Shown one piece after another: positions 951 to 17,043 of a stretch of 64,000 nt of DNA. The notes beneath the pieces are model-generated. The model worked only from the letters and a program-made list of their open reading frames with translations, had not been told where the DNA came from and searched no databases. The DNA is taken from assembly GCF_013344685.1 (NCBI RefSeq), contig NZ_CP050137.1, forward strand, positions 1,120,001 to 1,184,000, read 5' to 3'. The DNA is from Sphingomonas sp. CL5.1 (GTDB lineage Bacteria; Pseudomonadota; Alphaproteobacteria; Sphingomonadales; Sphingomonadaceae). Made by a program: the position numbers and the translations under genes. Position 1 is the stretch's first letter. Every line of letters begins with the position of its first letter.

Positions 951-965
951 CGCGCGGACGGGCCT

Positions 966-2466: not shown

Positions 2467-2639
2467 TGACGACGTCCACCTGTCCGATCTGCCGCCGTCC
2501 GTCGGCGCCCGAACACGCGCCCTTTTGCAGCCGTGGCTGCAAGGATCGCGACCTGCTGCAATGGCTGGGCGAAGGATATCGCCTGCCCGGCCCGCCGGTC
2601 GATCCAAACGGGCTGGACAGCGGCAAAGACCCCGACTAG
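2463..2639 (+). CDS. yacG: DNA gyrase inhibitor / zinc-binding protein YacG
   Basis: 58 residues, first ATG at 2463 (a second ATG at 2466 is also possible), overlapping the end of the RNase gene. YacG is a small zinc protein that binds GyrB and inhibits gyrase. The four zinc Cys are visible as CPIC (7, 10) and CSRGC (22, 26), followed by the family signature DLLQWLGEGYRLPG. Length and position at the end of the infA cluster fit. The last 15 residues are acidic and unstructured. Confidence 0.92.
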   Translation: MMTTSTCPICRRPSAPEHAPFCSRGCKDRDLLQWLGEGYRLPGPPVDPNGLDSGKDPD

Positions 2640-2667
2640 AGAGCGCGGCTCCGGCGTCCGTCGGTGT

Positions 2668-2743
2668 GCCCAGGTAGCTCAGTTGGTAGAGCATGCGACT
2701 GAAAATCGCAGTGTCGGTGGTTCGATCCCGCCCCTGGGCACCA
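2668..2743 (+). tRNA. tRNA-Phe (anticodon GAA)
   Basis: 76 nt with encoded CCA. The acceptor stem is GCCCAGG paired with CCTGGGC, with D arm GCTC...GAGC, anticodon stem TGCGA/TCGCA around a CTGAAAA loop (anticodon GAA), and T arm with GGTTCGATCC. The 3' end serves as the attachment site of island 1, and the integrase gene lies just downstream. The tRNA is intact after integration. Confidence 0.97.
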
Positions 2744-2745
2744 TT
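2728..2745 (+). other. attL core: tRNA-Phe 3' end used by island 1
   Basis: The 18-nt sequence CCGCCCCTGGGCACCATT at the tRNA 3' end recurs at 15207-15223 with one G missing. The preceding GAT(c/g) also matches. Use of a tRNA 3' end is typical for P4-type integrases. The boundary is inferred from the sequence match only. Confidence 0.8.
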
Positions 2746-2844
2746 TACCCATTCGCCGACATCCGCTTGCGTCTAGAAATTGGCGGTTTTCTGCGGTATT
2801 TACTCCTTACAGCGTTCGCGAGCGTTCACTTGCGTTTGCGGGCA

Positions 2845-2915
2845 TACCCCCAATTCAGGGGGTAGCTTTGGGGGCATATCGCTGGGGGTATCCTCCAAAT
2901 GGGCATTATACCCCC
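2845..2915. promoter_or_regulatory. Cluster of TGGGGGTAT-type sites (candidate integrase arm sites or operator)
   Basis: Between tRNA-Phe and the integrase start the motif GGGGGTA occurs several times in both orientations. TACCCCC and GGGGGTA form a perfect 7-bp inverted repeat at 2845-2864, GGGGGCATA follows near 2870, GGGGGTATC at 2884, and TATACCCCC near 2906. A related site, TTGGGGGTATCGTTCAAAT, lies near the other end at 15135-15153 and resembles 2882-2900. Arm-type binding sites for the integrase or its directionality factor are the likeliest reading; autoregulation is possible. Confidence 0.45.
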
Positions 2916-2934
2916 AGTGACGCGGGGTATGGGC

Positions 2935-4200
2935 ATGGCCCTTTCCGATATAGCAATTCGCAACGCCAAGCCGGGGATGCACCCGGAAAAGCCCGAACTG
3001 AACGGGAGGCCCTACAAGCTGTTTGACGGCGGCGGTCTTCACCTTGTGATCATGCCTACCGGGGGCAAGCTGTGGCGGCTCAAATACCGCGTGGCGGGTA
3101 AAGAGAAGCTGCTATCGCTTGGGGCCTATCCAGCACTGTCTTTGGCGGCCGCCCGCAAGGCCGCCGGCAAAGCGCGGGAAGCATTGGCTGGAGGTAGCGA
3201 TCCGGCGCTGGAGAAGCGGCGCGCCAAAGCGAAGGCCAAGGCTGGCGCAGGCGACACGTTCGCCGCCATCGCAAAGGAATATATCGCCAAAAAGAAGCGG
3301 GAGGGCGCGGCGGCGGCAACGCTGTTGAAGCTGGAATACCATGTTGCGAACCTGACCGACATTGGAACCATCCCTGTTGGCCAGCTCACCGCGACGGATA
3401 TTCTTGTTCCGTTGCGCAAGGTGGAGCGGCGCGGCAATCTGCACGCAGCCGGGCGGGCGCTGCAATTCACCGGGCAGGTGCTTCGCTATGCCGTCGCCAC
3501 CGCTCGCCTCAGCAGCGATCCCAGCCGGGATTTGCGCGGCGCGCTCGAAGCTCCCAAGGTGAAGCACCGGGCCGCGATAACGGACCCGGTGAAGCTGGGC
3601 GGATTGCTTCGCGCCATCGATGGCTACGAAGGCAAGGGCAGTCTCACCGGCATGGCCATGCAACTCGCCGCCTATCTGGCGCAACGCCCGGGCGAGATAC
3701 GGCAAATGCGGTGGGAGGAATTGGACCTATCCGGGGCTGTCTGGAATATTCCGGCGACTCGGACGAAAATGCGCAAGGTCCATGCGGTGCCGCTATCCGG
3801 GCAGGTGCTTGCCATCCTCACCGCATTGCAGGGCCTCACCGGCGGCGGCGAAGGCTATCGGGGCTATGTGTTCCCCTCTGTGCGCAGCCGCGCCCGGCCA
3901 ATGTCGGAAAACACCCTCAACGCGGCTCTGAGGCGGCTGGGCTATTCCAAGGAGGAAGCGACCACGCACGGCTGGCGCGCCACCGCCAAAACCCTGTTGC
4001 TGGAAAGCGGGAAGTGGAGCCGCGACATAATCGATCGCTGGCAATCGCGCGGCCCCAATGACGCGCTGGGCAGCGCCTATGACCGCACAGAATACTGGGC
4101 GGAACGGGTAGCGATGGCGCAATGGTGGAGCGACTATCTGGATATGCTCCGCAAGGGCGCGGACATTGTGCCGATCAAGACGAGGGGCGCGGGCAAATGA
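2935..4200 (+). CDS. int: P4-type tyrosine recombinase (integrase) of island 1
   Basis: 421 residues from ATG 2935 (MALSDIAIRNAKPG), chosen because this is where the family's DUF4102 N-terminal domain begins; in-frame ATGs at 2899 and 2929 are less likely. It carries out site-specific recombination between tRNA-Phe and the element. The N-terminal arm-binding domain contains LSLGAYPALSLAAARKAA and the catalytic domain has R251 (in QRPGEIRQ), K278 and HGWR (H345, R348); the nucleophile should be Y382 in AYDR. At the usual second-His position (family LAH) the protein reads QSR, with Arg372 instead of His or Trp, which may reduce activity. An integrase fragment follows. Confidence 0.93.
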   Translation: MALSDIAIRNAKPGMHPEKPELNGRPYKLFDGGGLHLVIMPTGGKLWRLKYRVAGKEKLLSLGAYPALSLAAARKAAGKAREALAGGSDPALEKRRAKAKAKAGAGDTFAAIAKEYIAKKKREGAAAATLLKLEYHVANLTDIGTIPVGQLTATDILVPLRKVERRGNLHAAGRALQFTGQVLRYAVATARLSSDPSRDLRGALEAPKVKHRAAITDPVKLGGLLRAIDGYEGKGSLTGMAMQLAAYLAQRPGEIRQMRWEELDLSGAVWNIPATRTKMRKVHAVPLSGQVLAILTALQGLTGGGEGYRGYVFPSVRSRARPMSENTLNAALRRLGYSKEEATTHGWRATAKTLLLESGKWSRDIIDRWQSRGPNDALGSAYDRTEYWAERVAMAQWWSDYLDMLRKGADIVPIKTRGAGK

Positions 4201-4221
4201 GCGGATTGGACCTCTCCCCAT

Positions 4222-4527
4222 ATGAGCAAGCCCTTGAAAACCAAATCGCCCGATGCGCCGATCTTTGCCGGCCCGCGTGGCGGGCCGTTGTCCGGGATGG
4301 CGATGGCTATGCTGCTGCGCCGTATAGATCGTCTTGATATCACCGTGCACGGCTTCCGATCCGCATTCCGCGATTGGGCCGCCGAGATAACGACATTCCC
4401 ACATGAGGTCTGCGAGATGGCGTTGGCCCACGTCATCGCCAACAGGGCTGAGGCCGCTTACAGGCGAGGTGACCTGATCACCAAGCGCCGCGAACTCATG
4501 GATGCATGGGCCGCTTACTTCGCCTAG
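4222..4527 (+). pseudogene. C-terminal fragment of a second P4-type integrase
   Basis: About 101 residues that match only the catalytic C-terminus of a tyrosine recombinase: an IFAGPRGGPLS stretch, HGFRSAFRDWAAE (HxxR), MALAHVIANRAEAAYRRGD (second His and Tyr nucleophile) and RRELMDAWAAYFA. The N-terminal and middle parts and the first Arg are absent. It lies 21 bases after the complete integrase. It is a remnant of an earlier or recombined integrase and is not expected to be active alone. An ATG at 4222 and an intact frame mean a small protein could still be made. Confidence 0.8.
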
Positions 4528-4592
4528 GACGAATCTCTAAAATAACCCCCGCGCACCTTTTCGCCATGATCCGTTCCGGGTAGCCGTCTGGC

Positions 4593-5369
4593 ATGAGTGA
4601 ATATGAAAACCGCTGGCTACCCGCTGGTACAGTGCTGAGCATCGTGTCCACCCACTTTGCCGCAAGCCTTAATCTTAATCGGGATGCAGCATCCTCGCGG
4701 GCTAGAGAAGAGATACTCGAATTACTAGTCGCTGGGACATTACTCGCCAGCCCTAAGGGCTTCCTGCTGCCATTTGCTGACCAGAACACCGAAATAGAGC
4801 GATGGTTTTGGTTTCACCGCTCAGAATCCGACGGTAGGAAAACCGAAGATTATCCCGAGAGCCGTCTTGGACAAAATGTGGTGACTATACCGAGTGATTT
4901 TTGGTTGCCGTTCCGAGATTACTGTGGTGGTGCTTACGCAGATTGGAATTTAGGCAATTTTCATATCACGAAGTTTGTCGATACCAATGGAGGAGAGTTG
5001 TCTGGCAGCGCTAGAAATGTGCTTTTTGACTCGATTGATCTTCCAGCCGCTTGGGTCATGTCGTCAAAGACAACGGTGCAAGCGACGGAAACAGCATCAT
5101 CCGAATCCTCCAAGAAACGTGGAGGAGGTCGTCACAGGACATGGGATTGGGATGGAGCTCTTTTGCATCTCGCAGCTGTAGCGCATCTAAACCCAGATGG
5201 CCTTCTTCGTAACAATGGAAATGAGCCCAACCAATCCGACATCGGAAAAATCTTAGGAGACTGGTTTTTTGCGCAACACGACAATTCTCCCCATGACAGC
5301 CAACTTCGCGCCTATGGTCAGAAATTTCAGGAGGCCGTAGACAAAATAAAAGCAGAAAAATCAAAATGA
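4593..5369 (+). CDS. Hypothetical protein
   Basis: 258 residues from ATG 4593. I do not recognise a family. The base composition is visibly AT-richer than the backbone, which suggests transfer. The chain has many aromatic residues in the first half (WFWFHR, DFWLPFRDYCGGAYADWNLG), a Ser/Thr/Lys-rich linker near residues 165-178, then a predicted helical C-terminus with the stretch LGDWFFAQHDNSPHDSQLRAYG. No signal peptide or membrane segment is seen. It lies alone between the integrase remnant and the AlpA-like regulator, so it could be element cargo or a regulator. Confidence 0.6.
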   Translation: MSEYENRWLPAGTVLSIVSTHFAASLNLNRDAASSRAREEILELLVAGTLLASPKGFLLPFADQNTEIERWFWFHRSESDGRKTEDYPESRLGQNVVTIPSDFWLPFRDYCGGAYADWNLGNFHITKFVDTNGGELSGSARNVLFDSIDLPAAWVMSSKTTVQATETASSESSKKRGGGRHRTWDWDGALLHLAAVAHLNPDGLLRNNGNEPNQSDIGKILGDWFFAQHDNSPHDSQLRAYGQKFQEAVDKIKAEKSK

Positions 5370-5397
5370 TGACCGATTAGGCTTTTTGCTACGTCGA

Positions 5398-5427
5398 ATT
5401 TTCCGCAATTTTCGGCAATTCTCCGCA
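5398..5427 (+). repeat. Three tandem 10-bp repeats upstream of the AlpA-like gene
   Basis: ATTTTCCGCA, ATTTTCGGCA and ATTCTCCGCA follow each other without spacing (5398-5407, 5408-5417, 5418-5427). The 10-bp period places each copy on the same DNA face. They lie 58 bases before the AlpA-like start codon. They could be binding sites for that regulator, or iterons for element replication given the primase genes downstream. Confidence 0.75.
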
Positions 5428-5484
5428 GTCAGTCCTGTAGCGATCATCGAGAATGCACGTCGTTCAACAGCGAACGAACGGAGC

Positions 5485-5667
5485 ATGATAATGAACGCTT
5501 TTCCACCCATCGCCTATAGCGTGCGCGATGCCTGCCGCGTGTCTTCCATCGGGCGCACCCGGCTCTATTCGCTCATCAAAGCTAAGAAGCTGGATGCCTG
5601 CAAGGTCGGCAAGCGCACGCTGATTCCGGCGGCGAGCTTGCAGCGCCTTATCGATGAGGGCTGCTGA
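5485..5667 (+). CDS. AlpA/excisionase-like helix-turn-helix DNA-binding protein
   Basis: 60 residues from ATG 5485, which has an AACGGAG ribosome site; a second ATG is at 5491. The fold is a MerR/excisionase-type winged HTH: an AYSVRDACRVSSIGRTRLYS helix pair, LIKAKKLDACKVGKRTLIP wing and SLQRLIDEG helix. Such proteins in P4-like satellites activate the integrase or act as excision factor. It lies directly upstream of the primase genes and behind a three-copy tandem repeat that is a plausible target. Confidence 0.85.
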   Translation: MIMNAFPPIAYSVRDACRVSSIGRTRLYSLIKAKKLDACKVGKRTLIPAASLQRLIDEGC

Positions 5668-5668
5668 T

Positions 5669-5869
5669 ATGAGTATGCCTTCACCCTGCGCGCGCAATCA
5701 CGCACAAGAGGGCGCGCATCAATCCCTCCCAAATTCCCCCGCAAACCGCCCCGTGAACGCGATGACGCGGTCGCCCCGTTCGATCATCAATGCGCGAAAT
5801 CAGGCGGGAAAATTGACGTCCCTTGGTGGGGTGAGTGCCTTCCTCCCTGCAATGGGAGGCGGAGCGTGA
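5669..5869 (+). CDS. Small hypothetical protein, coupled to the primase gene
   Basis: 66 codons from ATG 5669, one base after the AlpA-like stop codon, ending in a GTGA overlap with the primase start at 5866. The product has no recognisable domain and is Ser/Asn/Pro-rich with a glycine-rich end. The close junctions at both ends support translation, but the residue composition is not convincing. It may be only a spacer that carries the ribosome into the primase gene. Confidence 0.4.
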   Translation: MSMPSPCARNHAQEGAHQSLPNSPANRPVNAMTRSPRSIINARNQAGKLTSLGGVSAFLPAMGGGA

Positions 5870-6723
5870 CCGACCATAACTTTCTCACGGCAGACACCCT
5901 TATACGGGCCGGGGTGATGGTGTTTCCCTGTCAGGAGGGAGGCGCGTCCGCCAAAGCGCCATACACGCGACGGGGGTTCAAGGACGCCACAACCGACCAG
6001 CTTACGGCGGACCTCTGGTCCCTGAAATATCCGGGAGCCATATGGGGGCTGCCGTGCGCACGGAATGGCGTGTTGGTGCTGGATGCCGATCGCCATGGAA
6101 AAGGTGATGGTGTCAGCAACATAATGACTCTTTTTGAACGTCACCAATTCGATTGGTACACGGTGCCGGTCGTCGCGACCCCGAACGGCGGCTACCACTT
6201 CTACTTTAGCCGCCCTGTCGCGATGGGGCAGACCAGAGCGACTCTCTGCGAAGCCGTGGACGTTCGGGACAACGCCTTTGTGATCGGTCCCGACTGCCGG
6301 ATGCTCAACGGACGCAGATACTCGCTGGTCGAAGGAACCTTGCACCAGTTTGCGGAGGCCATCGCTACTCATAGCCTGCCTGAGCCGCCCGCATGGATGA
6401 TGCCGATGCTCGTTCATCCGCCCGCGCCGAAATGGGCTGGCACCCCACAGCCCGTTGCCGTTGATGACGAGGCCCTTAGAAATCAGGTCAAAGGTCTCAT
6501 CCTCGCCGTTCTGCGCGCCGAAGACGGCAACCGCAACAAACTGCTTTTCTGGGCCGCCTGCCGGTTAGCCGAGATGGTGCGGGGCGACCTGCTCGATCTC
6601 GAAGTCGCGAAAATGCTGCTCGACGAGGCAGGGGCGCGGATCGGTCTCGATCCACAGGAAACACGCCGAACTACCATCAGCGGTCTTCGCACGATATTGG
6701 GGGGCGACCGCAATGCCCGCTAA
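5866..6723 (+). CDS. Bifunctional DNA primase/polymerase (AEP superfamily, prim-pol)
   Basis: 285 residues with a GTG start at 5866. The protein is expected to prime and extend DNA during replication of the element. The prim-pol core is visible in order: PYTRRGFKDAT near residue 32, the metal-binding VLDADRHG (D73, D75), TPNGGYHFYF (H111) and VDVRDNAFVIGP (D132-D135 region). The C-terminal 90 residues are helical and may be a primase-C-like or linker domain. The helicase function is probably supplied by the next gene or the host. It overlaps the DUF3987 gene by 11 bases. Confidence 0.88.
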   Translation: MTDHNFLTADTLIRAGVMVFPCQEGGASAKAPYTRRGFKDATTDQLTADLWSLKYPGAIWGLPCARNGVLVLDADRHGKGDGVSNIMTLFERHQFDWYTVPVVATPNGGYHFYFSRPVAMGQTRATLCEAVDVRDNAFVIGPDCRMLNGRRYSLVEGTLHQFAEAIATHSLPEPPAWMMPMLVHPPAPKWAGTPQPVAVDDEALRNQVKGLILAVLRAEDGNRNKLLFWAACRLAEMVRGDLLDLEVAKMLLDEAGARIGLDPQETRRTTISGLRTILGGDRNAR

Positions 6724-8227
6724 TCGCGCGAATCCTGCTAATTTGTCCGGGGCCGATGCCAAGGCGTTGATGATCGAGGCTGTGGCGGAGCAGGCACAAA
6801 TCCCCGAGAAACGGCCCTTGTTCCGTGAGTTGCCACCTCCATCCCAATTCCCGGTCGATGCTCTCGGCCCGCTCAAGGATGCTGCGCTTGCCATTCAGTC
6901 CAGAACACAAGCGCCGATCGAGATTTGTGCGCAATCCGTGCTCGCCGTGGCGACCCTCGCGGTTCAAGCGCATATCGACGTTGATCTGCCGGGCGGCGGC
7001 ACCAAGCCTGTCGTAAACATGTTCGTTTCCATCGCCGAGAGCGGCGAGCGAAAAACCAGCGTGGATAAGATCGCGCTCGCCTCCGTGCGGGACGTGGAAT
7101 CGCAATGGAATAGGGACCATAAGCTCGCGACGGCAGATTACGAGAACCGTCTTGTCGCGTGGAAAACGGCCCGGGCAGGCGTCAAGAAGGGCGCCGTGCC
7201 CGATATGGTGGCCGCGCTCGGCCAGATCGGGCTGGAGCCGGAGGCTCCGCCGCATCCCATGCTAATATGCTCGGACGTGACCCCGGAAGCATTGGCCCTG
7301 CATCTTGAGAAAGGCAGGCCGATAGCAGGGCTGTTTACCGCCGAAGGCGGCATCCTTGTCGGCGGCGCTGCATTCAACGACGAGAGCCGGATGCGCACGG
7401 CGGCGTTGCTCAATAGCCTTTGGGACGGCGAACCTATCAGGCGACAGCGCGTAGGGACGGGGACGACGTTCTTGCCCGGTTGCCGCTGCTGCGCACATAT
7501 TATGATGCAGCAGGTCGTCGCGGACAGGCTGCTTGGCGATTCCATGTTGGACGGCATGGGGATGCTTGCGCGGATGCTGATCGTCGCGCCTGAAAGCACG
7601 GCGGGTAGTCGGCTGTTCAAGCGCGATGTGCCCGAGAATGCCGCGATCCTTCAAGCCTACAATAATCAGATCGCGATGTTGCTGCGGATGGAGCCTGCCA
7701 CCAACAACAGTCGGGAACTCGCTCCAAGAGTGCTGCCGCTGGATACCGATGCAAGCGCGGCGTGGATCATCTTTCACGATCAATGCGAGACTGCGATCCG
7801 AAAGAACGGCGAGCTCGTCACGATCAAGCCTTTCGCCGCCAAACTCGCCGAACACGCCGGGCGGCTCGCCGCCGTGCTGACCGCCTATGACGATCCACAG
7901 GCACAGGTTGTCCCTCTTTGGGCGATGGAATCGGGCATTCAACTGGCGGAGCACTATGCGATGGAGATGCTACGGCTGCATGGCGGGGCGGTTATCCCGT
8001 TGGAACTGCGCCGCGCGCAACGGCTGCTGGACTGGTGGCAACGGCGCGAGGAATCGACGCTGCATCTGGCCAACATTTACCAGAAAGGCCCTCCCGAACT
8101 GCGAGACGCCAAACCAGCCAGAGCCGCTGTGAAGGTATTGATCGAGCACGGTTGGGTCGAGCGCCTTGAGCCGGGAACGGAGGTCGAGGGCAAGCCGAGG
8201 AAGGACGTCTTTCGGTTGGTTGCGTGA
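6713..8227 (+). CDS. DUF3987 (YfjI-like) protein, probable replication-associated ATPase
   Basis: 504 residues from ATG 6713, overlapping the primase gene. DUF3987 proteins accompany prim-pol proteins in satellites and integrative elements and are thought to act in their replication. The family start FPVDALGPLKDAALAI and the P-loop-like SIAESGERKTSVDK near residue 105 are present, followed by TPEALALHLEKG and AEGGILVGG. The C-terminal 100 residues resemble a winged helix (RAAVKVLIEHGWVERLEPG). The composition is closer to the backbone than the cargo genes that follow. Confidence 0.85.
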   Translation: MPANRANPANLSGADAKALMIEAVAEQAQIPEKRPLFRELPPPSQFPVDALGPLKDAALAIQSRTQAPIEICAQSVLAVATLAVQAHIDVDLPGGGTKPVVNMFVSIAESGERKTSVDKIALASVRDVESQWNRDHKLATADYENRLVAWKTARAGVKKGAVPDMVAALGQIGLEPEAPPHPMLICSDVTPEALALHLEKGRPIAGLFTAEGGILVGGAAFNDESRMRTAALLNSLWDGEPIRRQRVGTGTTFLPGCRCCAHIMMQQVVADRLLGDSMLDGMGMLARMLIVAPESTAGSRLFKRDVPENAAILQAYNNQIAMLLRMEPATNNSRELAPRVLPLDTDASAAWIIFHDQCETAIRKNGELVTIKPFAAKLAEHAGRLAAVLTAYDDPQAQVVPLWAMESGIQLAEHYAMEMLRLHGGAVIPLELRRAQRLLDWWQRREESTLHLANIYQKGPPELRDAKPARAAVKVLIEHGWVERLEPGTEVEGKPRKDVFRLVA

Positions 8228-8358
8228 ACACCCTCGGCTGCACGCAGGCAAAGCGATCATTGATCGAAGCGAGCACGCTGATAGAAACGCCTCGAAGTCC
8301 GTTGACCCCAAGACGACGCGCCCATATATGTTCGCATAATGTTCCATAAGGTTGGTTG

Positions 8359-8772
8359 ATGTCAAACGATCAGACGCGAACGCGGTTTGGCCTAGTTAAG
8401 GGGATAGGCATAGTCTTTCTGTGCCTTGTGTCAGGTGTGATCGGGGGCGGACTCACCCGACATTTTGGAACGAGCAGCTATACGCTTTCCTACGCTGATT
8501 TTATCTCCATCATGCTGACAGCCGTGTCATTGCTAATGACCGTGCTGGCCATCTTTTTGGCCGTGTTGGGCTTTGTGGGTTGGACAACCATCGAACAAAA
8601 AGTTCACAATCTAACAGATGATTTTCTCAAAAGGGGTTTTGAAAAGGGTGGACCATTGCACCAGATTCTCACGGAAATGAATAACCGTATGTACTCTGGG
8701 ATTCAGGGAATAGATGAGACCACATTGAATGGTGACGATGTAATCAATGATAGTGACGGTGACACTGCATGA
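8359..8772 (+). CDS. Two-TM membrane protein of the ImmA/IrrE-Beta trio
   Basis: 137 residues from ATG 8359 (a TTG one codon earlier is possible). Two membrane segments are seen, residues about 11-31 and 45-72, with a soluble C-terminal tail of about 65 residues that ends acidic (DDVINDSDGDTA). No family recognised. The stop codon overlaps the start of the ImmA/IrrE peptidase gene (ATGA at 8769), so the two are translated together. The AT-rich composition is foreign to the backbone. A membrane anchor or effector role in a defence-like operon is inference from context only. Confidence 0.7.
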   Translation: MSNDQTRTRFGLVKGIGIVFLCLVSGVIGGGLTRHFGTSSYTLSYADFISIMLTAVSLLMTVLAIFLAVLGFVGWTTIEQKVHNLTDDFLKRGFEKGGPLHQILTEMNNRMYSGIQGIDETTLNGDDVINDSDGDTA

Positions 8773-9269
8773 GCCTTCTTTCTGACAATAGGGTCAGAGA
8801 AGACGATGCCGATGTTGTTCGGCGTTTTACCGCCGAATTTCCGGTGAAAGTGGGTGAGCTTGCGAGTGAGCTTGGCCTAAAGGTGACGCGCGCGCCTCTT
8901 CTCCCCAAGATTTCCGGTCTTATCCAGCCTTCGTCAGACGCTCGCTCTGGTTTTGAAATCCGTGTGAATAAGTACGAGATACCTGAACGCCAGCGATTTA
9001 CCGTTGCTCATGAGATTTCCCACTATCTGCTGCATCGGGACGATATTGGCTCCGGGGTCGTGGACAGCATCATGTATCGGTCTAATCTGACTTCACGAAA
9101 GGAAACCGAGGCTAACCGGCTTGCCGCAGACATTGTGATGCCTGCCCGAGCGGTAAGCCGAGAGTTGGAGAGGCTAGGCGGACGACGGACCGACGATGTT
9201 GTGGAAAAGCTGGCCGCTATGTTTCGGGTTTCGGTTCCTGCTATGAAAGTTCGGCTGGGGGTAGCCTAG
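8769..9269 (+). CDS. ImmA/IrrE family metallo-endopeptidase
   Basis: 166 residues. ImmA-type peptidases are cytoplasmic zinc proteases that cut a partner, usually a repressor, after DNA damage or infection; IrrE cleaves DdrO. The zinc motif HEISH is at residues 81-85 with the third ligand region ETEANRLAADIVMP near 113-126, then a helical end with VSVPAMKVRLG. No XRE repressor gene lies next to it, which is unusual; the neighbours are a membrane protein upstream and a Beta-family protein 9 bases downstream. The natural substrate may be one of these two. Confidence 0.9.
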   Translation: MSLLSDNRVREDDADVVRRFTAEFPVKVGELASELGLKVTRAPLLPKISGLIQPSSDARSGFEIRVNKYEIPERQRFTVAHEISHYLLHRDDIGSGVVDSIMYRSNLTSRKETEANRLAADIVMPARAVSRELERLGGRRTDDVVEKLAAMFRVSVPAMKVRLGVA

Positions 9270-9278
9270 AAGGCATAG

Positions 9279-10355
9279 ATGCTGGAAAACTTTCCTTATT
9301 GCCCCACCCTCTACGCAAGGGTGGCCGAGATCAAAGCGCTGGCTCAGTTGCCAGCAGCAACAAAGGATCGCATTTTTCCCCTGATAATCGGTCGCCCTTG
9401 GCCAAATGCCAAATACCTCACCCGGACTTGGGAAAAAATCCACGAAGCGCTTGGAAACCGCAGATTTGCGCTGGATTTGGATGAGACCAAGCGGAATTCA
9501 GGCGGTAGTCGCCCAGCAGCAGCAGAATTCGACAGCCTGTTTTCGAGCCGCAGCGGCTTCGAAAATTACTATCAAGCCGTCTTTGATATTGCTGAAGCTA
9601 TTCCAGTCCTACGAATAAGTGGAGGCGATGCAGCACAATTTGATTCCCAAGCGGAACATATCGAAAGGCTCGACCGAGGGCTTGTTGTTCGTATTGAGCA
9701 TGGGAAAGTCAGCAACCCGCTTGGACTGGTCGATCAAGTGTTGGGTCGCTTTGTTGACTTATCCATATTTGTAGATGCTGGGTGGTCGCGCGACATTCTG
9801 AGCAAAGAGGTTTGGGTGTCTTCGATCATTGAACGGATTTCCCGAGATCATCCGGAAATCGAAGTTGTCGTGTCCGGCAGCAGTTTCCCAGACTCTTTTA
9901 CGGGCATTGGGGAGCGCGGCGCGATCCCCGTTGAGGAACGCCACCTCTTTAACAACCTGGTTCGACGGCACAACGCCGCCACGCTGATCTATGGAGATTG
10001 GGGAAGCACACGCCCGCCCCCGCCCTCAGCCGATCAAGTGCCGATGCGGAACGTGCCTAGGATTGATTTGCCCATGTCCAGTCAGTGGATCTCGTTCCGG
10101 CGGGATCGAGATTTGCAGGACGATGAAGATTACACCGATATTGCCCAACGTGTGGTAGGAGACCCAGACTGGCCCGCCGATCTGAACATATGGGGCACTT
10201 ATACGATCGGTTGGACAGCCAACGGCGAACCCGGTGCGATACGCAGTCCAGCAACTGCGGCAGCGGCGCGGATAAATATCCATCTTCACCGGCAAGCCTT
10301 CTTCGGTGCTAACGATACCATTGTTGATGGGGATGAGCCGTTCACGGACGATTGA
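9279..10355 (+). CDS. Beta family protein (PF14350-like)
   Basis: 358 residues from ATG 9279. The start YCPTLYARVAEIKALAQLPA, KDRIFPLIIGRPW and the repeated SGGDAAQFD/IVRIEHG pattern are those of the Beta protein family found in phages and mobile elements. The biochemical function is unknown. A barrel-like alternation of strands and helices is suggested, with FVDAGW and VVVSGSSFPDS stretches and a conserved end containing WGTYTIGWTANG. It is the last gene of the AT-rich three-gene operon with a membrane protein and an ImmA/IrrE peptidase. Family assignment is from memory of the pattern. Confidence 0.75.
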   Translation: MLENFPYCPTLYARVAEIKALAQLPAATKDRIFPLIIGRPWPNAKYLTRTWEKIHEALGNRRFALDLDETKRNSGGSRPAAAEFDSLFSSRSGFENYYQAVFDIAEAIPVLRISGGDAAQFDSQAEHIERLDRGLVVRIEHGKVSNPLGLVDQVLGRFVDLSIFVDAGWSRDILSKEVWVSSIIERISRDHPEIEVVVSGSSFPDSFTGIGERGAIPVEERHLFNNLVRRHNAATLIYGDWGSTRPPPPSADQVPMRNVPRIDLPMSSQWISFRRDRDLQDDEDYTDIAQRVVGDPDWPADLNIWGTYTIGWTANGEPGAIRSPATAAAARINIHLHRQAFFGANDTIVDGDEPFTDD

Positions 10356-10826
10356 ACGGGGAACTAGGTGCAAGAGGCCAATTAGCGGATTCGCACGATT
10401 AGCAGGCACGTCGCTGTCGCACATTTATGAGCGGGTGACCGCCTAATACCCTAAAACCCGAATACCCCCTTCGTTAAACACGAAATGTGCGCCCTTGCCC
10501 GCCCTGCGGGGCGCTGCACGCGCGGGGGCACCTCCTACGGACGCCCATGCGCATATCGACGTTGTGCGGCGGGTTTGGGCGGGAAACCCCACTCGTTGCG
10601 GGTGACCTCATGCGAGGCGATGGCGGGTAAGTTTGGAACTGTCGACCAATATAAGCATTCCAGCCCGGTGAATACCGCATGGGGCTGCTAGGCGGCCAGC
10701 CATCGTCCAGCAAGGTAGAATAGAGTTCAAGAACGCATCGCCCGGAACCCGCGCAAAGGTCACAACTGGTTCCGAATCAGGGCGAGCTGTTAGCTATACC
10801 TATCAACCTATTAGCGGCGGACGAGT
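10356..10826. other. 471-bp stretch without a recognised gene
   Basis: This lies between the convergent Beta-family gene and the minus-strand membrane protein gene. Short open frames on both strands have arginine- and proline-rich translations without family features. No tRNA, strong terminator or long repeat was found. It could hide a small RNA or an antitoxin, but nothing in it supports that directly. Confidence 0.5.
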
Positions 10827-11480
10827 CTAGTGCTCGCATTTGACGGGACGGCGAGGTGACACTGGCCGAAATTTATAACCCGTCAGGCGATATGATCTTG
10901 CTGAACAGTTGTCACCTACACCGTCACTAGGAGAATACGTCACTGTCACAATGTCGCTATCTGCTGTTGATTTTACATCATCGAGAGATTCGCCATCTTG
11001 GGATTCGTCTGGTGATCCCAAAACAACTCCGGTTTTTCTGTCGTAAAACCAAATACTGGTACAACCAGTGCCGCAACTCACAGCTGACTGCACATATGTT
11101 CTGTTAAACGACGGGATGCGATCAGCAGCTTCCACGATCTCGCGCGGAACTGCATAATTACTGCCATCCACGAAATGCGGAGTTGGCGGCGGGCGCTGGG
11201 CGGTTGTTGCGTCGACTACTTCGTTTGCGTCGTTTCTTGTCACGTCGGGCGCCCTTGCTACGTCGTCACGCGCGCTCGATGCGGGGACGGGCGTTTGCAC
11301 GTTCGCGGGCGTGTCGTTCGTCACGGCGCTTTTGAGCGTGGTGCTAATTGTCGAAGCGTCGCGCTGAGAGCCAATTCGTGCACTTCCACTTTGGTCGATC
11401 ACGAAAATTGCGATGCCTATCCCGGTGCACACCGCGATAAAAATAATGCCTTGAACCACATGAGATCGTTTGTTGGCCAT
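10827..11480 (-). CDS. Hypothetical membrane-anchored protein
   Basis: 217 residues, start ATG at 11480. A single N-terminal membrane segment (GIIFIAVCTGIGIAIFVI, residues 11-28) follows a basic MANKRSH end, so the rest should be periplasmic. A Ser/Thr/Ala-rich linker (30-100) leads to a C-terminal domain with several Cys (CGTGC near 135, and C near 187 and 215) and an IWFYDRKTG stretch that could form disulfides. No family recognised. It is preceded by another small membrane protein gene 9 bases upstream, suggesting an operon. Possible role: cell-surface or lysogenic-conversion factor. Confidence 0.65.
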   Translation of the reverse strand: MANKRSHVVQGIIFIAVCTGIGIAIFVIDQSGSARIGSQRDASTISTTLKSAVTNDTPANVQTPVPASSARDDVARAPDVTRNDANEVVDATTAQRPPPTPHFVDGSNYAVPREIVEAADRIPSFNRTYVQSAVSCGTGCTSIWFYDRKTGVVLGSPDESQDGESLDDVKSTADSDIVTVTYSPSDGVGDNCSARSYRLTGYKFRPVSPRRPVKCEH

Positions 11481-11489
11481 GCCTGCCTC

Positions 11490-11759
11490 TCACGAATGCG
11501 CGCCCGCGCGCCAATCCCGAATTTCTTCGACAAGTTCACAGTGGCGATCATGGATTGATATAAAGGTCGCGGTGAGACCGAGCATCATGATCAATCCCAC
11601 GAACAGCGATATCGCGCCGAGGCCGTATAGCATCATGAGGGGAGCTATTTCCGTCGGAAGCTGACTCAATTTGAGTAATCCGTAAACGGCTCCAACGATC
11701 ATAACGGCGAGTATCGCGAATATAAGATAGCGATATAGGTCGACGATAAAGCGCATCAC
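11490..11759 (-). CDS. Small two-TM membrane protein
   Basis: 89 residues from ATG 11759 (MMRFIVDLYRYLIFAIL). Two long hydrophobic helices, about residues 10-31 and 39-66, are followed by a short charged tail (IHDRHCELVEEIRDW). No family recognised. The gene is 9 bases upstream of the anchored protein gene at 10827-11480 and shares its strand and AT-rich composition. A perfect palindrome in the AT-rich leader may control both. Confidence 0.65.
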   Translation of the reverse strand: MMRFIVDLYRYLIFAILAVMIVGAVYGLLKLSQLPTEIAPLMMLYGLGAISLFVGLIMMLGLTATFISIHDRHCELVEEIRDWRAGAHS

Positions 11760-11793
11760 ATTCCCCTATTGGCAAGAACGATCAGTAAATTAT

Positions 11794-11807
11794 AAGATAT
11801 ATATCTT
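11794..11807. promoter_or_regulatory. 14-bp perfect palindrome in an AT-rich leader
   Basis: AAGATATATATCTT is fully palindromic and lies 35 bases upstream of the start codon at 11759, inside the most AT-rich stretch of the island. It is a plausible operator or part of the promoter of the two membrane-protein genes. Simple alternating AT content makes chance occurrence possible. Confidence 0.35.
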
Positions 11808-11952
11808 GATGATATTTCTTAAGGACTACTATATGACTTCATTATTTTCAACGTAAGTTTGTCATATGACATATCGTTCGTGCCGACTAATAGATCAATG
11901 CCAGATCAATGCATTTCTTTTCCAGGGGCGAGGCGAACATTCGCCGGTTTCG

Positions 11953-12717
11953 TCAGCCGGAGATACGGGGAGCTACTGGCAACGCATCGGGTGCGGCGGG
12001 CTTCGCCTGACGGCCGGGCGCGGCAGTGCCCACGAGGCCGTGGAACTTGCGCCAATGCGCGTAGAGGCTTGCGGTCATCGCCATGTTGAAGCCCTCGACT
12101 TCGCCTCGTTCGAGGATTTCCTTGCGCGTGGCCGGCGCGCCCTTGTCGCGTGTGATCTCGTCTATGATCGCCCACAAGCGACCTGTGATAGTGCCTTCCG
12201 CTGGCTTGGTTACGCCGTTCCGCTTCTCGCGTTCGATCTTGGACGCCTCGGCATTTTCGATCACAGGTTCGGCGGCAAGCCGATCCCAAGCCTCTTTGAA
12301 TTTGGGGTCGTCGTATGACTTGGGAATGAGCCAGTGGTTTCCATCGCCATCCCGCGTCGCTAACTGTCTCACTTCTTCAAGGCGCATGATGTAGCAAGTC
12401 GGGGTGTTAGAATTTGCATGAACAGTAATAATCCACCACTCTGATCGCAAATTTTCGAGCTTCATTCCCAATGGAACAGAGTTACGGCTACTAAGGGCCT
12501 TGGATTGTACGCCAAATTTTAGATTCTCACCCTCATCCGTTACAAACATATCTGAACCACGGGCATTGCGTATCGTCGGCGTCACATGCCATGTGCGCCG
12601 CGATAATTGCCATGCAACATAGCTGAGGCCGGCATTGCCGGTAAAATGAGGGCGGTTCTTGAAGGCGTCCAAGGCCATGGCACTCGCTCCAAATCTTGTT
12701 TTGGAGCGACCGGCCAA
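11953..12717 (-). CDS. PD-(D/E)XK nuclease-like protein (putative)
   Basis: 254 residues, start ATG 12717. The first 120 residues show the layout of a restriction-endonuclease fold: GNAGLSYVAWQLSRRTWHV (helix with conserved Gly), then RNARGSDMFV with Asp at the catalytic position, and FGVQSKAL giving the QxK variant of the (D/E)xK motif. The C-terminal part (ITGRLWAIIDEITRDKG, TRKEILERGEVEGFNMAM) looks like a winged helix. A DNA-cutting or DNA-binding function is inferred; the Q in place of the acidic residue is known in some nuclease subfamilies. It may belong with the two downstream membrane proteins. Confidence 0.55.
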   Translation of the reverse strand: MAGRSKTRFGASAMALDAFKNRPHFTGNAGLSYVAWQLSRRTWHVTPTIRNARGSDMFVTDEGENLKFGVQSKALSSRNSVPLGMKLENLRSEWWIITVHANSNTPTCYIMRLEEVRQLATRDGDGNHWLIPKSYDDPKFKEAWDRLAAEPVIENAEASKIEREKRNGVTKPAEGTITGRLWAIIDEITRDKGAPATRKEILERGEVEGFNMAMTASLYAHWRKFHGLVGTAAPGRQAKPAAPDALPVAPRISG

Positions 12718-13054
12718 AGCCGGGTGTTGGAATCCCCGTGCGTAGCCCGAGGCACCGCCATTTTAGGCAAAGCCCTGGACATACGGCGGTCACCCGGCCG
12801 AGAAACTCGACCGAGCTACGCATCAAAGGGGATTCCACGCCCCACGGGCGGAATGTGCCGCGCCGCAGGTCGCTTCTGCCACTGGGAGGTTAACGGCGCA
12901 ATAATGCGGGTTACGGCGGAACGTCGTCGGGGATTGTTAGTCCATGCGCAGTTGCCCCGTCCCCAACGATGCAGGAGGGCGCAATCAATTCACTTGTGCG
13001 GACTTGCCGCAACAGCCTGCCGTTTTATTACTAAAGTTGCAATTTTATCGAGAT
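12718..13054. other. 337-bp intergenic region
   Basis: This divergent region separates the minus-strand nuclease-like gene from the plus-strand phage-like gene. The right 80 bases are strongly AT-rich and probably contain the promoter for the gene at 13055. Short frames here are not convincing and no RNA gene was recognised. Confidence 0.5.
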
Positions 13055-13402
13055 ATGTTATTATTGATTGATGATAAATTTGATCAAATACGGATAGATG
13101 TTTTGAGTAATTACGATAAAAATCCGTCGGACGATGCGAATATTTTAGGGAATAATAGGGGTAATGCCGGCAAAGGTCGTCCGAAAGGCTCGCTCAACAA
13201 GGTCAATGCCAGCCTGAAGGAGATGATCCTTGGGGCGTTGAAGGACGCGGGCGGACGGAATTGGCTCGCGACACAGGCTCAGGAGAATCCGGCGGCGTTC
13301 ATGGCGCTGCTCGCCAAGCTACTCCCCCTCGAACTTAAGCAGGAAGCGACTCAACCCGAGCCGCTCACGATCCGGGTGATCGGCGGCCTTCCTGACAATT
13401 GA
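13055..13402 (+). CDS. Small phage-type protein (DUF5681/terminase-small-subunit-like)
   Basis: 115 residues from ATG 13055. The conserved block runs GNAGKGRPKGSLNKVNASLK, then MILGALKDAGGRNWL and ENPAAFMALLAKLLPLEL, a pattern seen in short phage and prophage proteins near terminase genes. The N-terminal 40 residues are acidic and AT-rich coding and may not be part of the original protein. No terminase large subunit follows, so in this element it is isolated. Function here is unknown; a DNA-binding role is inferred from the basic KGRPKGS motif. Confidence 0.6.
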   Translation: MLLLIDDKFDQIRIDVLSNYDKNPSDDANILGNNRGNAGKGRPKGSLNKVNASLKEMILGALKDAGGRNWLATQAQENPAAFMALLAKLLPLELKQEATQPEPLTIRVIGGLPDN

Positions 13403-13488
13403 GTTGTGGAGAAGCGCGCTCCGCAGGCGACGGAGCCATCTTGGTGCGTTGCCAAGGGGGGTAGTGCATCCGCATATTCGTTTGCCCC

Positions 13489-15022
13489 ATGACAGACCAG
13501 CTTCTCGATTCGGCCATGAGCCACTTGCGCGCCGTTGCCGCGCATTCGCAGGATTGCACTGATTCCGAAGACGACGGCGGATTGCTGGCCCACGCAGCTT
13601 CCCGCTTACTCTCATCCACGAGGGCGCGGGGGCACGCGGTCGAAATCCTCCGCTTCGCAAAAACCGCGCTGGCCGTGCCCATTGACAGCATGGTCAAGGA
13701 TATCGAAAAACCAACCGCCCATGAAATCGAGTCCGTAGTGAAGCTGCTCGCTTCACGGGAATTCCGGGCCACACCACTGCAACATCGGCTGGCCTGTCTG
13801 TGCGATATTCTGGGACTAGATGGAGCGGACCTCGCGATACTGGTCGCCGTTGCCCATTACTACCGCGACGAGCATTTGCGCTCGCTCATAAACGATACCT
13901 GTGGTTACGGCTGGAGATGCTTGCGCTCGCACGCTGTTGCCCAGATTTCCGGAATCGGCGAGGGGGAGGTGCAAGAACACCTTTCTAAACACGGGCGACT
14001 GGTCGGTATGGGGCTGGTCAGCATCGACGACAGGGACGGCGAATACCAGCAAGGCACATTGTTGAGCGACATCGCGAGTCTTCAAGGGACGCAGCGCGAT
14101 GACGTGGAACGCTTCCTTGCTCCGGACGACGAAGGCACTGGCCTTGACTGGGAGGATTTCGCCCATCTTGGTTCGTTGCGTGATCTGGCCGAGCAGGTTT
14201 TGCGCTCGGGCAAGCCGGTCAGCATTCTCCTTCACGGTGAACCCGGCACCGGCAAGAGCGAATTTGCGCGTACCCTGGCGCGTCGCGTTGGGCGTGGCGC
14301 AACCTTCGCTGGTCTCGTTGGCAAGGGGGGAAACGAGGAGTCGAAACGGGATCAGCGCCTTTGGCATCTCGCCATGCTGCGCCGCATTTGCGCAAACCGG
14401 GACGACCGTATCGTGGTGGTGGATGAGGAGCCTGTTGCTTTCCGGGCCATCGGGAACGGGCAAGAGCGCCTTCGCCCGACACCTTGCCGAGCGTCTCGGG
14501 ATCGAGGTCGAGGCGAAACGCGCGTCGGATCTCGTCAGTCCCTTCGTGGGCGAAACCGAGGCCAACATCGCCCGCGCCTTTGCGGCGGCGGCGCGGCGTG
14601 GGGCGATGCTGTTAATCGACGAGGCGGACAGCTTTCTCTACCGGCGTGATAACAGCCTCCGCAATTGGGAGGTGTCGCAGGTCAACGAAATGCTCTGCCA
14701 GACGGAGCGGCTGGAATCGCCGTTTGTCGCCACCACCAACCTCGCCAACCACCTCGATCCGGCAAGCCAGTGCCGCTTCACCCTTCGGGTGGCGTTTCGC
14801 ACGATGACCGCTGCGCAGGTGGAACGCCTTTTCGCCGCGCGCTTCGGCATGGGGTGGCCGGCTGGCGAACCTCTGCCCGTCGATCAGACGCCGGGAGATT
14901 TCGCGGTCGTCGCCTCGCGCGCCGATCTGCTTGGTGAAGGGAATCCCGACCAGCTCGTCCGTTGGCTCCGGGATGAGGCGGAAGCACGCGATGGCGGTGC
15001 GCGCGGCCCTATTGGGTTCTAG
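13489..15022 (+). pseudogene. Frameshifted AAA-family ATPase (two P-loops, middle deleted)
   Basis: The frame from ATG 13489 encodes about 315 residues including a first Walker A, HGEPGTGKSEFARTLA, and runs into a Walker-B-like VVVDE near 14425. At about 14425-14440 the coding potential moves to another frame, which starts at once with a second Walker A, LSGPSGTGKSAFARHLAERL, then SPFVGETEANIARAFAAA, LIDEADSFLYRRD and TTNLANHLDP to the stop at 15022. Intact relatives have two separate AAA units; here the end of the first and the joint are missing, so an internal deletion with frameshift is inferred. It lies at the right end of island 1. Confidence 0.78.
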
Positions 15023-15134
15023 ATAGGATTCCTCTCGGGCTCGCAAACCGCCGATTGGGACGTTAACTTGGGGTGTTGCGCTCCGCGATTGCACGCCTGC
15101 GTTCGCTCACAGTCAGCAATTTTTAGGGGTACTA

Positions 15135-15153
15135 TTGGGGGTATCGTTCAAAT
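15135..15153. promoter_or_regulatory. Candidate integrase arm site near the right end
   Basis: TTGGGGGTATCGTTCAAAT resembles CTGGGGGTATCCTCCAAAT at 2882-2900 beside the left end. The paired positions inside the two ends of the element are as expected for arm-type binding sites. Confidence 0.4.
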
Positions 15154-15206
15154 TCGGATTTGAAAATATAAATAATGTTCATATGGATAACCAGATATAT
15201 ATGATG

Positions 15207-15223
15207 CCGCCCCTGGCACCATT
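15207..15223 (+). other. attR core of island 1
   Basis: CCGCCCCTGGCACCATT repeats the tRNA-Phe 3' end (2728-2745) with one G lost. It defines the right boundary, giving an element of about 12.5 kb. The rest of 15023-15324 holds no gene that I can support. Confidence 0.75.
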
Positions 15224-15324
15224 CCCCCCGCAAATGACCGAAATCGCCTCCGCCGCCATGGCCGTTGTCGAGGCTGCCGATCCATTATAAGCTCCGCCGT
15301 CCGATGCGGACGAAGGAGAAGCAT

Positions 15325-15510
15325 ATGTTGAAGGCTGCGTTCATTGCCGCGTCACTGGCTTCATTGGCGGCCGTTCCCGCCTATGCGGCCCCGTGCAAGG
15401 ATGCGAAGGGCAAGTTCGTGAAATGCCCGCCCGCCAAGCCGGTCAAATGCAAGCTCGCCAACGGCAAGTTCGCCAAATGCGGCACGCCAGGCGCGAAACC
15501 GATCAAGTAA
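15325..15510 (+). CDS. Small secreted Lys/Cys-rich protein
   Basis: 61 residues from ATG 15325, preceded by GGAGAAG. A signal peptide (residues 1 to about 22, AAVPAYA before the cut) is followed by two or three short repeats of the form CKDAKGKFVKC and CKLANGKFAKC, with four Cys and many Lys. The mature protein of about 40 residues should be periplasmic or secreted. The repeat recalls periplasmic CK-repeat proteins such as PsiF, but I cannot assign it. It is the first backbone gene after the island 1 boundary and has its own ribosome site. Confidence 0.7.
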   Translation: MLKAAFIAASLASLAAVPAYAAPCKDAKGKFVKCPPAKPVKCKLANGKFAKCGTPGAKPIK

Positions 15511-15519
15511 GACCAGCGA

Positions 15520-15541
15520 CCCGCCCACCGGGAGGGGCGGG
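15520..15541. terminator. Possible hairpin between convergent genes
   Basis: CCCGCCC (15520-15526) pairs with GGGCGGG (15535-15541) around an 8-nt loop, between the stop at 15510 and the convergent stop at 15550. There is no T-run, so termination would be weak or Rho-assisted. Confidence 0.4.
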
Positions 15542-15549
15542 ACCTGTCG

Positions 15550-16278
15550 TTATCGCCGTTTCGCCTTCGCCCCGGCCAGCGCCGAGAGCACCCCGCGCAG
15601 CGTGCGCACTTCCTGGCTCGACCAGCCGGGCTTGGTAAGCAGGGTGCGCAAGGTGCGCCTGGTCGCGGGGGTGCGATCGGGCGGGAAGAAGAAGTTCGCC
15701 TCCTCCAGCATCCGGTCGAGCTGGCCGATCATCCCCTCCAGCTCATCCTGCGGCGCGGGCGGGGCGAGGTCGGTTTCCGGCGGGCTGGCGAGCATCTCGC
15801 CCTTCGACCATTCATAGGCGACGAGGATCACCGCCTGCGCGAGGTTGAGACTGCCGAATTCCGGGTTGATCGGCACCGTCAGGATCTTCCGCGCCAGCGC
15901 CACGTCGTCGGTTTCCAGCCCGGAACGCTCCGGGCCGAACAGGATCGCGGCGCGCTCGCGTACGCCACGTATCTCGCGCGCGGCGGCCTCGGGGGTGACG
16001 ACCGGCTTGGTCACGCCGCGCTTGCGCACCGTCGTCGCATAGACGTGCGCGCAATCCGCCACCGCGTCGGCGACGTTGTCGAACAGCTTCGCGCCCTCCA
16101 GCACCATGTCGGCGCCCGAGGCGGCGGGGCCGGCGAGCGGGTTGGGCCAGCCGTCACGCGGGGAGACGAGCCGCATCTCGGTGAGGCCGAAGTTGAGCAT
16201 CGCGCGTGCCGCCTTGCCGATATTCTGGGCGAGCTGCGGGCGGACGAGGACGATGACGGGCGGCGGGACGACGCTCAT
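15550..16278 (-). CDS. TrmJ-type tRNA/rRNA 2'-O-methyltransferase (SPOUT, TrmH family)
   Basis: 242 residues from ATG 16278, overlapping the nrdR stop by four bases. SPOUT enzymes methylate a ribose 2'-OH with SAM; TrmJ acts on position 32 of tRNAs. The N-terminal [20 protein letters not shown], the [17 protein letters not shown] loop and the knot motif [19 protein letters not shown] are all visible. The C-terminal 70 residues form the extension typical of TrmJ ([19 protein letters not shown]). Last gene of the rpiB-glyA-nrdR run. Confidence 0.88.
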
Positions 16279-16736
16279 CCGCGTCCGGCTTCCTCGACCG
16301 TACCGGCGAATTCCTCGAAATCCTTCGCCTCGTTGAAGTCGCGATAGACCGAGGCGAAGCGGATATAGGCGACCGAATCGAGGCCCTTCAGCCCCTCCAT
16401 CACCATCTCGCCGATCCGCTGGGAGGTGACCTCGCCGTCGCCGCTGGTCTCGAGCTGGCGCTGGATGCCGGAGACGAGCCGCTCGATCGCCACGCCGTCC
16501 ACCGGCCGCTTGCGCGCGGCCACGCCGATCGAGCGCACCAGCTTCTCGCGCTCGAATGGCTCGCGGCGGTCCTGGCTCTTGATGACGATCAGCTCGCGGA
16601 GCTGGATGCGCTCGAAGGTGGTGAAGCGCGCGGCGCAGCCCTCGCACTGGCGGCGGCGGCGGATCGCCGCGCCGTCGTCGGTCGGGCGGCTGTCCTTCAC
16701 CTGGCTCGCGTCGTGGCCGCAGAACGGGCAGCGCAT
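16275..16736 (-). CDS. nrdR: Transcriptional repressor NrdR
   Basis: 153 residues. NrdR represses ribonucleotide reductase genes in response to nucleotide levels. The zinc ribbon is intact (C3, C6, C31, C34; [11 protein letters not shown] and [14 protein letters not shown]), followed by the ATP-cone domain (about 49-139) with [14 protein letters not shown] and [13 protein letters not shown]. Length is standard. It lies between the small membrane protein and the methyltransferase in a minus-strand cluster downstream of glyA, a frequent alphaproteobacterial order. Confidence 0.96.
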
Positions 16737-16770
16737 CTGGCTTTCATTCCCTCAAGCACGAAGCGGGACC

Positions 16771-16834: not shown

Positions 16835-16858
16835 ACGGTGCGCGTCGTTCGAAAAGGA

Positions 16859-17035: not shown

Positions 17036-17043
17036 GTCATCCC

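Follow-up and report, generated by a model that had tools for sequence, protein, structure and literature searches.

A conserved trio of two-transmembrane protein, M78 peptidase and Beta-family protein genes with a predicted LexA box, kin to gop-beta-cII and PD-lambda-2

Several described systems offer a comparison for the locus analyzed here (papers given by their PubMed Central, PMC, number are cited from excerpts). The gop-beta-cII system of satellite phage P4 protects against lambda and P1 (PMC9122126). Its gop gene is reported to be toxic without beta (PMC9122126, citing Ghisotti 1990), and Beta represents a likely antitoxin family (PMC9122126). The P4 locus has gop next to beta and a convergent cII, which gives a membrane protein plus Beta and no peptidase. 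In the PD-lambda-2 system, a HigB-like protein and an Xre-peptidase fusion are joined by a third component, which is related to a P4 antitoxin and needed for defence (PMC9519451). In RosmerTA, ImmA-type proteases are the antitoxins and one validated toxin depolarises membranes, while ImmA itself cuts a repressor (PMC10440598). Our subject is a gene trio in a 64,000-nucleotide stretch of Sphingomonas sp. CL5.1 (the window; contig C1, positions 1120001-1184000 of the 4.57 Mb genome G000), which encodes a two-transmembrane (2-TM) protein, a stand-alone M78 (ImmA/IrrE) metallopeptidase and a Beta-family protein (Table 1). The trio is a conserved unit and, judged by sequence, is kin to gop-beta-cII and PD-lambda-2 through the shared Beta family.

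The likeness to gop-beta-cII begins with Beta, whose sequence shares 29.5% identity with P4 Beta across 94% of its length. In both loci, carried by integrative elements, Beta follows a small membrane protein encoded on the same strand, with the difference that in the trio a stand-alone M78 peptidase gene stands between the two and a LexA box lies in the promoter. A convergent cII gene is a further likeness in 12 of 53 trio loci, including a second copy in the same genome (L105); no cII (sce7726) match was found among the open reading frames (ORFs) of window positions 1-20000. The 2-TM protein resembles Gop in size, position and membrane-plus-tail layout only, and the PADLOC gop model did not match it at E<=0.1 (P4 Gop itself scores 4.8e-70). 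What the trio has in common with PD-lambda-2 is a Beta-family protein that an M78 domain directly precedes, and one more gene ahead of both. However, its first gene is not HigB-like (no PADLOC or Pfam match), its peptidase lacks an XRE domain (the PD-lambda-2 B profile matches only the M78 part, 3.6e-7), and its Beta is separated from that of PD-lambda-2 by a supported branch (100/92) in the Beta tree. The trio does have a C protein of the Beta family: Beta matches PD-Lambda-2_C at 6.4e-6, more weakly than the P4-type beta model (3.4e-48).

RosmerTA sets an ImmA-type protease beside a variable toxin; the trio, whose ImmA-type peptidase gene adjoins that of a candidate toxin, may be comparable, and membrane protein-M78 pairs without Beta look similar. 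Here, however, the RmrA models match the M78 domain only (best 1.9e-10), no helix-turn-helix (HTH) domain is present, and Beta is extra. CapH/CapP and ImmR/ImmA involve the same peptidase family. CapP cuts its XRE partner, whereas the partner gene in the trio encodes a membrane protein without an HTH match rather than an XRE repressor. The original prediction, which was made from this DNA alone, had held that the trio belongs to no named system. This stands in that the full definitions of gop-beta-cII and PD-lambda-2 are not matched, and fails in that the trio shares the Beta family with both and an ImmA-type protease with RosmerTA. A description of the trio was not found in the open-licence PMC literature, in searches several of which used crude queries.

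A re-check of the sequence bore out the predicted arrangement of three plus-strand genes with an ATGA overlap at 8769-8772 and a 9-base gap at 9270-9278, and hydropathy scoring and Pfam upheld the identities assigned to them (2-TM protein, M78 peptidase with HEISH motif, Beta protein). The first protein has 2 hydrophobic segments by hydropathy scoring, and an AlphaFold model of modest confidence (mean pLDDT, the predicted local distance difference test, of only 71) places helices at residues 6-35 and 45-93; neither an HTH nor a HigB domain was matched in Pfam. Peptidase_M78 (PF06114, 6e-17) is the sole Pfam domain in the 166 residues of the second protein. Its best PADLOC match is capP (2e-27) and its nearest solved structures by sequence profile are CapP (7t5t, 3e-12) and IrrE (3dte, 4e-12). 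The HEISH zinc motif (HExxH) occupies residues 81-85, and an alignment of 55 peptidases of the trio type shows H81, E82 and H85 in all 55 and E112 in 90% or more of them. The third protein matches Beta_protein (PF14350, 3e-50) and PADLOC beta. Its model (pLDDT 93, predicted template-modelling score 0.91) gave 1 Foldseek match at E<=0.001 (6n2f, 5.6e-5, template-modelling score 0.39), and 50 VIA-align rows were read as TIM barrels from their titles. Beta is accordingly described as a predicted, apparent TIM barrel, in the sense of fold and not of enzyme activity.

Conservation of the trio was established from Beta loci drawn from genome contigs (38), from viral contigs (6) and from genomes searched with PF14350 (298 of the family, 398 of the phylum), two sets that overlap partly and contain 16 and 13 PF14350-positive genomes, G000 being in both. 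Left out were duplicates (L101, L106), partial or broken loci (L022, L040, L041, L088) and loci missed by the Beta profile (L099, L104). The original prediction had named absence of the three genes as a unit elsewhere as its own first refutation; instead, 53 of the 69 classified Beta loci encode a membrane protein, a short M78 peptidase and Beta in the same order and on the same strand. The remainder comprise 8 loci with a long M78, 6 (P4 included) with cII and no M78, and 2 others. By a simple hydropathy rule, 48 of the 53 trio membrane proteins have two transmembrane (TM) segments, 4 have one and 1 has three. The same order occurs in at least 6 families, namely Sphingomonadaceae, Rhizobiaceae, Paracoccaceae, Caulobacteraceae, Acetobacteraceae and Halomonadaceae. 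When the PF14350 searches are taken alone (32 distinct places minus 2 contig-end fragments), the trio is present at 14 of 30 places, a short M78 whose TM protein gene lies 219 bases away on the upstream side at 1, a long M78 at 10, and no M78 at 5; an M78 domain lies directly upstream of Beta in 25 of the 30, and cII is found at 19.

In 27 of the 53 trios the TM and M78 ORFs, each taken at its longest, overlap. Mean identities across the trios are 23% (TM), 46% (M78) and 35% (Beta), and the pairwise distances of the three proteins are correlated (r = 0.81, 0.84 and 0.85; 0 of 2000 permutations each), a pattern of co-inheritance rather than contact because the loci share descent. In reverse searches of the 298 genomes, all 10 matches of the TM profile at E<1e-20 and all 10 of the short-M78 profile at E<1e-50 were trio loci, as were the 5 places matched by the TM profile at E<1e-15 in the 398 genomes (two of them G000 again). 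Since both profiles contain members from the genomes searched, these searches add only that matches of such strength are confined to loci with Beta; weaker TM and M78 matches do occur away from it. First-look candidates were scored in part (e.g., 12 of 26 in G000), and one known trio (L089 in G675) escaped the TM profile. The second and distant copy in G000 (L105, C1 54000-72000) has its TM, M78 and Beta genes at 7622-8101, 8089-8577 and 8606-9721, a convergent cII (sce7726) gene at 9718-10788 (-) and no perfect LexA box.

The promoter region of the window trio contains a LexA box, GTTCGCATAATGTTC, that came to notice as a repeated TGTTC in upstream alignments and agrees with the alphaproteobacterial consensus GTTC-N7-GTTC (PMC3323433, PMC4211646). 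Hexamers and spacing comparable to those of the predicted window promoter precede the TM gene in L004, L005, L006 and L008. The weight of the box comes from its recurrence at trio promoters, as a lone match in 64 kb means little: the window holds 2 perfect matches (shuffle mean 1.45), about the chance number, the second being at 51985-51999 (-). Among the trio promoters, 24 of 53 contain a perfect box in either orientation, compared with a mean of 0.43 and a maximum of 3 in 500 shuffles. A perfect box occurs at 17 of 644 control starts (ORFs of at least 200 residues from these loci, trio genes among them, regardless of whether they are real genes), a difference with a Fisher p of 3e-19 when relatedness is ignored. 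Box density is 42-fold that elsewhere in the loci (25 in 15.9 kb vs 25 in 673 kb), and some boxes fall within the part by which the longest ORF extends the TM gene.

In the window's clade the box is present in 13 of 16 loci, always GTTC-oriented; in the other clade without cII it is present in 11 of 25, of which 10 have a GAAC-oriented box and one of these also a GTTC-oriented one. This difference in orientation suggests that the box arose more than once. No box was found in the 12 cII-bearing trios, 15 other Beta loci or 5 XRE-M78 pairs. The same box precedes the recA ORF of G000 (GTTCCCCTCTTGTTC) and occurs twice before its likely lexA start, which was chosen by us (the longest lexA ORF begins 60 bases upstream). 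These promoter patterns make SOS control of the trio highly probable. The words LexA and SOS are absent from the gop-beta-cII paper (PMC9122126).

We propose that the trio is abortive, toxin-antitoxin-like cargo of an integrative element. The 2-TM protein would be the effector and, once free, would damage the membrane. Its cognate partner would be the M78 peptidase, which jointly with the barrel protein Beta would hold it off by binding or by trimming its tail. The operon would be repressed by LexA until infection by a phage, or DNA damage, caused LexA cleavage, raised expression and upset the balance, so that the unbalanced effector could act and the infected cell would stop. As a whole, an SOS-linked, toxin-antitoxin-like membrane effector module with M78 and Beta as control, probably directed against phages or other elements, has in our estimate an even chance of being correct. 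Its parts differ in strength. Toxicity of the 2-TM protein is likely, though argued by analogy because the family shows neither detectable Gop homology nor a match to a defence model. A role of the trio against phages or other elements is moderately probable.

Related loci show natural exchanges of parts. Loci with a long M78 and Beta vary in their first gene, which encodes DUF6932 at L081, L093, L099 and L104 (and, by sequence likeness, at L094 and L095), DUF4917 at L086, a GNAT protein at L087 and a PD-Lambda-2_A/HigB-like protein at L082. Of the long M78 proteins, three were compared with Pfam and two of these have an HTH domain; the L082 one matches PD-Lambda-2_B along its full length; this locus matches the A and B models of PD-lambda-2, with a PF14350 protein third. 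Because these related Beta loci put toxin-like or candidate effector genes in the first position, the 2-TM protein occupies an effector-like slot. The DUF6932-long M78-Beta loci (L081, L093-L095, L099, L104), a cousin of PD-lambda-2, have convergent cII in 4 of 6, and their DUF6932 proteins match the PADLOC candidate PDC-M63A. At L086, the DUF4917 protein (8477-9532; PADLOC candidate PDC-S21, 3e-119) lies 105 bases before an XRE-M78 gene with a Beta gene beside it.

A second exchange concerns short M78 genes without Beta, of which 9 were found in the 298 genomes at E<1e-25, all in genomes outside the PF14350-positive set. The slot upstream of the peptidase holds a membrane protein in 4 (G061, G031, G135 and G084; the G135 protein scores one TM segment) and an XRE protein in 5 (G278, G260, G161, G009 and G223; PF01381 in 5 of 5). 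G324 contributes a further TM-M78 pair, and the TM profile matches the membrane proteins of G061, G031 and G324, not that of G135. These pairs (L133/L144 in G061, L134 in G324, L145 in G084, L146 in G031, L147 in G135) are possibly minimal forms of the module. The M78 tree groups the XRE-paired peptidases (100/91) and is compatible with either partner having come first. Since one and the same position next to the peptidase holds an XRE protein in some loci and a membrane protein in others, it is plausible that M78 acts directly on the 2-TM protein, and we rate this somewhat above even. The exchange also fits the idea that the membrane protein is the peptidase's partner, one of two candidates in the original prediction, the other being Beta.

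M78 peptidases are known cleavers of XRE repressors, and the five XRE-M78 pairs could be read as a sign of ordinary regulation of the ImmR/ImmA type, in which the window peptidase would cleave a repressor whose gene lies elsewhere, and the three genes would be neighbours by chance. The gene order kept in most Beta loci and the co-variation of the three proteins argue against this. Furthermore, no XRE family stood out in blastp clusters of flanking ORFs at the 53 trio loci (25 of the 27 clusters of at least 3 loci), in line with the original claim of a peptidase without a repressor, and we regard such regulation as highly improbable.

If the peptidase does act directly on the 2-TM protein, it may restrain rather than activate it, because ImmA-type proteases are antitoxins in RosmerTA and Beta belongs to a likely antitoxin family; given such action, restraint is marginally the better prospect. 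Activation of the membrane protein or of Beta upon infection was the model of the original prediction. In the form weighed here, the peptidase would sense infection or DNA damage, in the manner of CapP with its XRE partner, and would activate the 2-TM protein by clipping it, Beta being brake or scaffold. The position of the 2-TM protein in the XRE-partner slot, the split of the nine Beta-less loci, the invariant HExxH and the capP match would all suit it. Nevertheless, the ImmA-type protein is the antitoxin in RosmerTA (PMC10440598), and in P4 the membrane protein and Beta occur with no peptidase, so activation there cannot need one. Nor could a cleavage site be named: only 10 of the 53 2-TM proteins contain the strict form of the tail motif [IV]x[YF]xG (mean of 0.4 in shuffles), which was set aside as a conserved cleavage site, although it is a lead. 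Activation by clipping is the main alternative to the proposed module, but a doubtful one.

Several observations weigh against the restrained-effector module as proposed. Perfect LexA boxes are missing from 29 of the 53 trio promoters and present in just 1 of 5 TM-M78 pairs, and one-mismatch boxes are only mildly commoner than at controls (among sites that have no perfect box, 6 of 17 trios lacking cII vs 114 of 627 control starts). The 2-TM protein had no PADLOC match at E<=0.1, hence matched no defence model, and comparison of its family with Gop by hhalign gave a probability of 0.4%, the two being perhaps too diverged for the method. In PD-lambda-2, the XRE-M78 fusion is toxic and the HigB-like protein neutralises it (PMC9519451), the reverse of the assignment made here. 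Finally, defence genes near the trios are few. PADLOC was run on 134 of 154 chosen neighbour proteins from 51 of 52 other trio loci (long ORFs, without a gene caller or control set; the set excluded every L107 protein, the copies of cII, two trio genes of L038 and a few more), and each of the 25 families listed was matched by only 1-2 of the 134 proteins. The matches were scattered (GajA, AriA, MzaA, methylases, PDC-S04), and the suggested defence-island setting was not borne out among these proteins.

The same scarcity of defence neighbours is compatible with an SOS-induced maintenance or division-control cassette, in which the 2-TM protein would serve the element or the damage response instead of defence. 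Caulobacter has small damage-induced transmembrane division inhibitors, SidA and DidA, of which SidA is induced through LexA (PMC4211646), and the LexA box shared by many trio promoters, recA and lexA would agree with an inhibitor of this kind, as would the position of five trios just downstream of uvrA. On the other hand, the kin systems are antiphage and the trio is not bound to one element type. The window integrase, AlpA-like, Prim-Pol and DUF3987 genes had no tblastn match (E<=1e-4) at any other trio locus, within loci that reach at most about 7-8 kb per side. We consider such a cassette unlikely. A single carrier element common to the trios was rejected within the loci searched.

Other neighbours recur. 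Flanking ORFs formed 27 clusters holding at least 3 trio loci, many of them shadow frames; the recurrent neighbours of the 53 trios include cII (12 loci), serine recombinases (6), a weakly HTH-like upstream protein (6; HTH_28 at 4.5e-4 in L018, no match in L103) and uvrA (5). The idea of cII as the only recurrent neighbour was consequently discarded. The uvrA gene, an SOS-type repair gene, is convergent just downstream of Beta in L012, L013, L018, L100 and L107 (-5 to 1249 bases), and its side is an insertion hotspot for these five trios. ThiC and LepA domains, each matched by 3 neighbour proteins in trio flanks, hint at further hotspots.

The natural part-swaps connect gop-beta-cII and PD-lambda-2 with toxin-antitoxin systems based on ImmA proteases. 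The series runs from membrane protein plus Beta, through membrane protein plus M78, to all three, all three plus cII, and another first gene with a long M78 and Beta, and constitutes a natural deletion set for separating the roles of Beta and peptidase. The LexA box in turn suggests DNA damage as a possible trigger. Both the box, which the original prediction lacked, and the part-swap pattern may be new, neither having come up in the searches of open-licence PMC papers. A broader and tentative view is that of a DNA-damage-wired, protease-gated membrane effector, for which an ImmA-type peptidase would have exchanged its repressor partner in evolution. Here Beta would be infection sensor or lock, SOS control would have arisen repeatedly in lineages without cII, and Beta plus M78 would form a platform for swapped effectors (2-TM, HigB, DUF6932, DUF4917, GNAT), in one family with gop-beta-cII, PD-lambda-2 and RosmerTA.

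Table 1. Coordinates of the trio, its promoter region and its carrier element in the window
Feature	Position	Strand	Basis
tRNA-Phe, likely attachment site of carrier element	2668..2743	+	tRNA call
Tyrosine integrase of carrier element	2899..4200	+	PF13356, PF22022, PF00589
HTH_17 (AlpA-like), Prim-Pol and DUF3987 genes of carrier element	5386..8227	+	Pfam
Predicted promoter: -35 TTGACC (8302-8307), 17 bp, -10 TATATG (8325-8330)	8302..8330	+	Consensus match only
LexA (SOS) box GTTC-N7-GTTC, predicted	8330..8344	+	Exact match; overlaps last base of -10
2-TM protein gene, 137 residues, acidic tail, predicted effector	8359..8772	+	ORF, hydropathy, model, slot comparison
Stand-alone ImmA/IrrE (M78) metallopeptidase gene, 166 residues, HEISH	8769..9269	+	PF06114, PADLOC capP
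Beta-family protein gene, 358 residues, predicted (beta/alpha) barrel	9279..10355	+	PF14350, PADLOC beta, model

The carrier element had been described as an integrase-AlpA-primase element, and Pfam recovered all three components (tyrosine integrase, AlpA-like HTH_17 and Prim-Pol). Its integrase is 34% identical to that of P4 over 422 residues. A second copy of the tRNA-Phe 3' end, the expected attachment (att) site, was not found within the window. The right end of the element may lie near 13489-15022, where two overlapping plus-strand frames match AAA ATPase models (PF00004 at 5e-20 in 14099-15022, weakly in 13489-14649). The trio was also said to be richer in AT than its surroundings. This holds against the genes just upstream and window positions 16000-64000 (52.5% GC vs 60.9% and 67.2%), but not against the 3 kb downstream (54.1%) or the ORF at 4593-5369 (48.5%), which are similarly AT-rich. 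An ORF of 101 residues that follows the integrase (4222-4527) resembles a C-terminal piece of another tyrosine recombinase, and its match in L094 overlaps that of the integrase.

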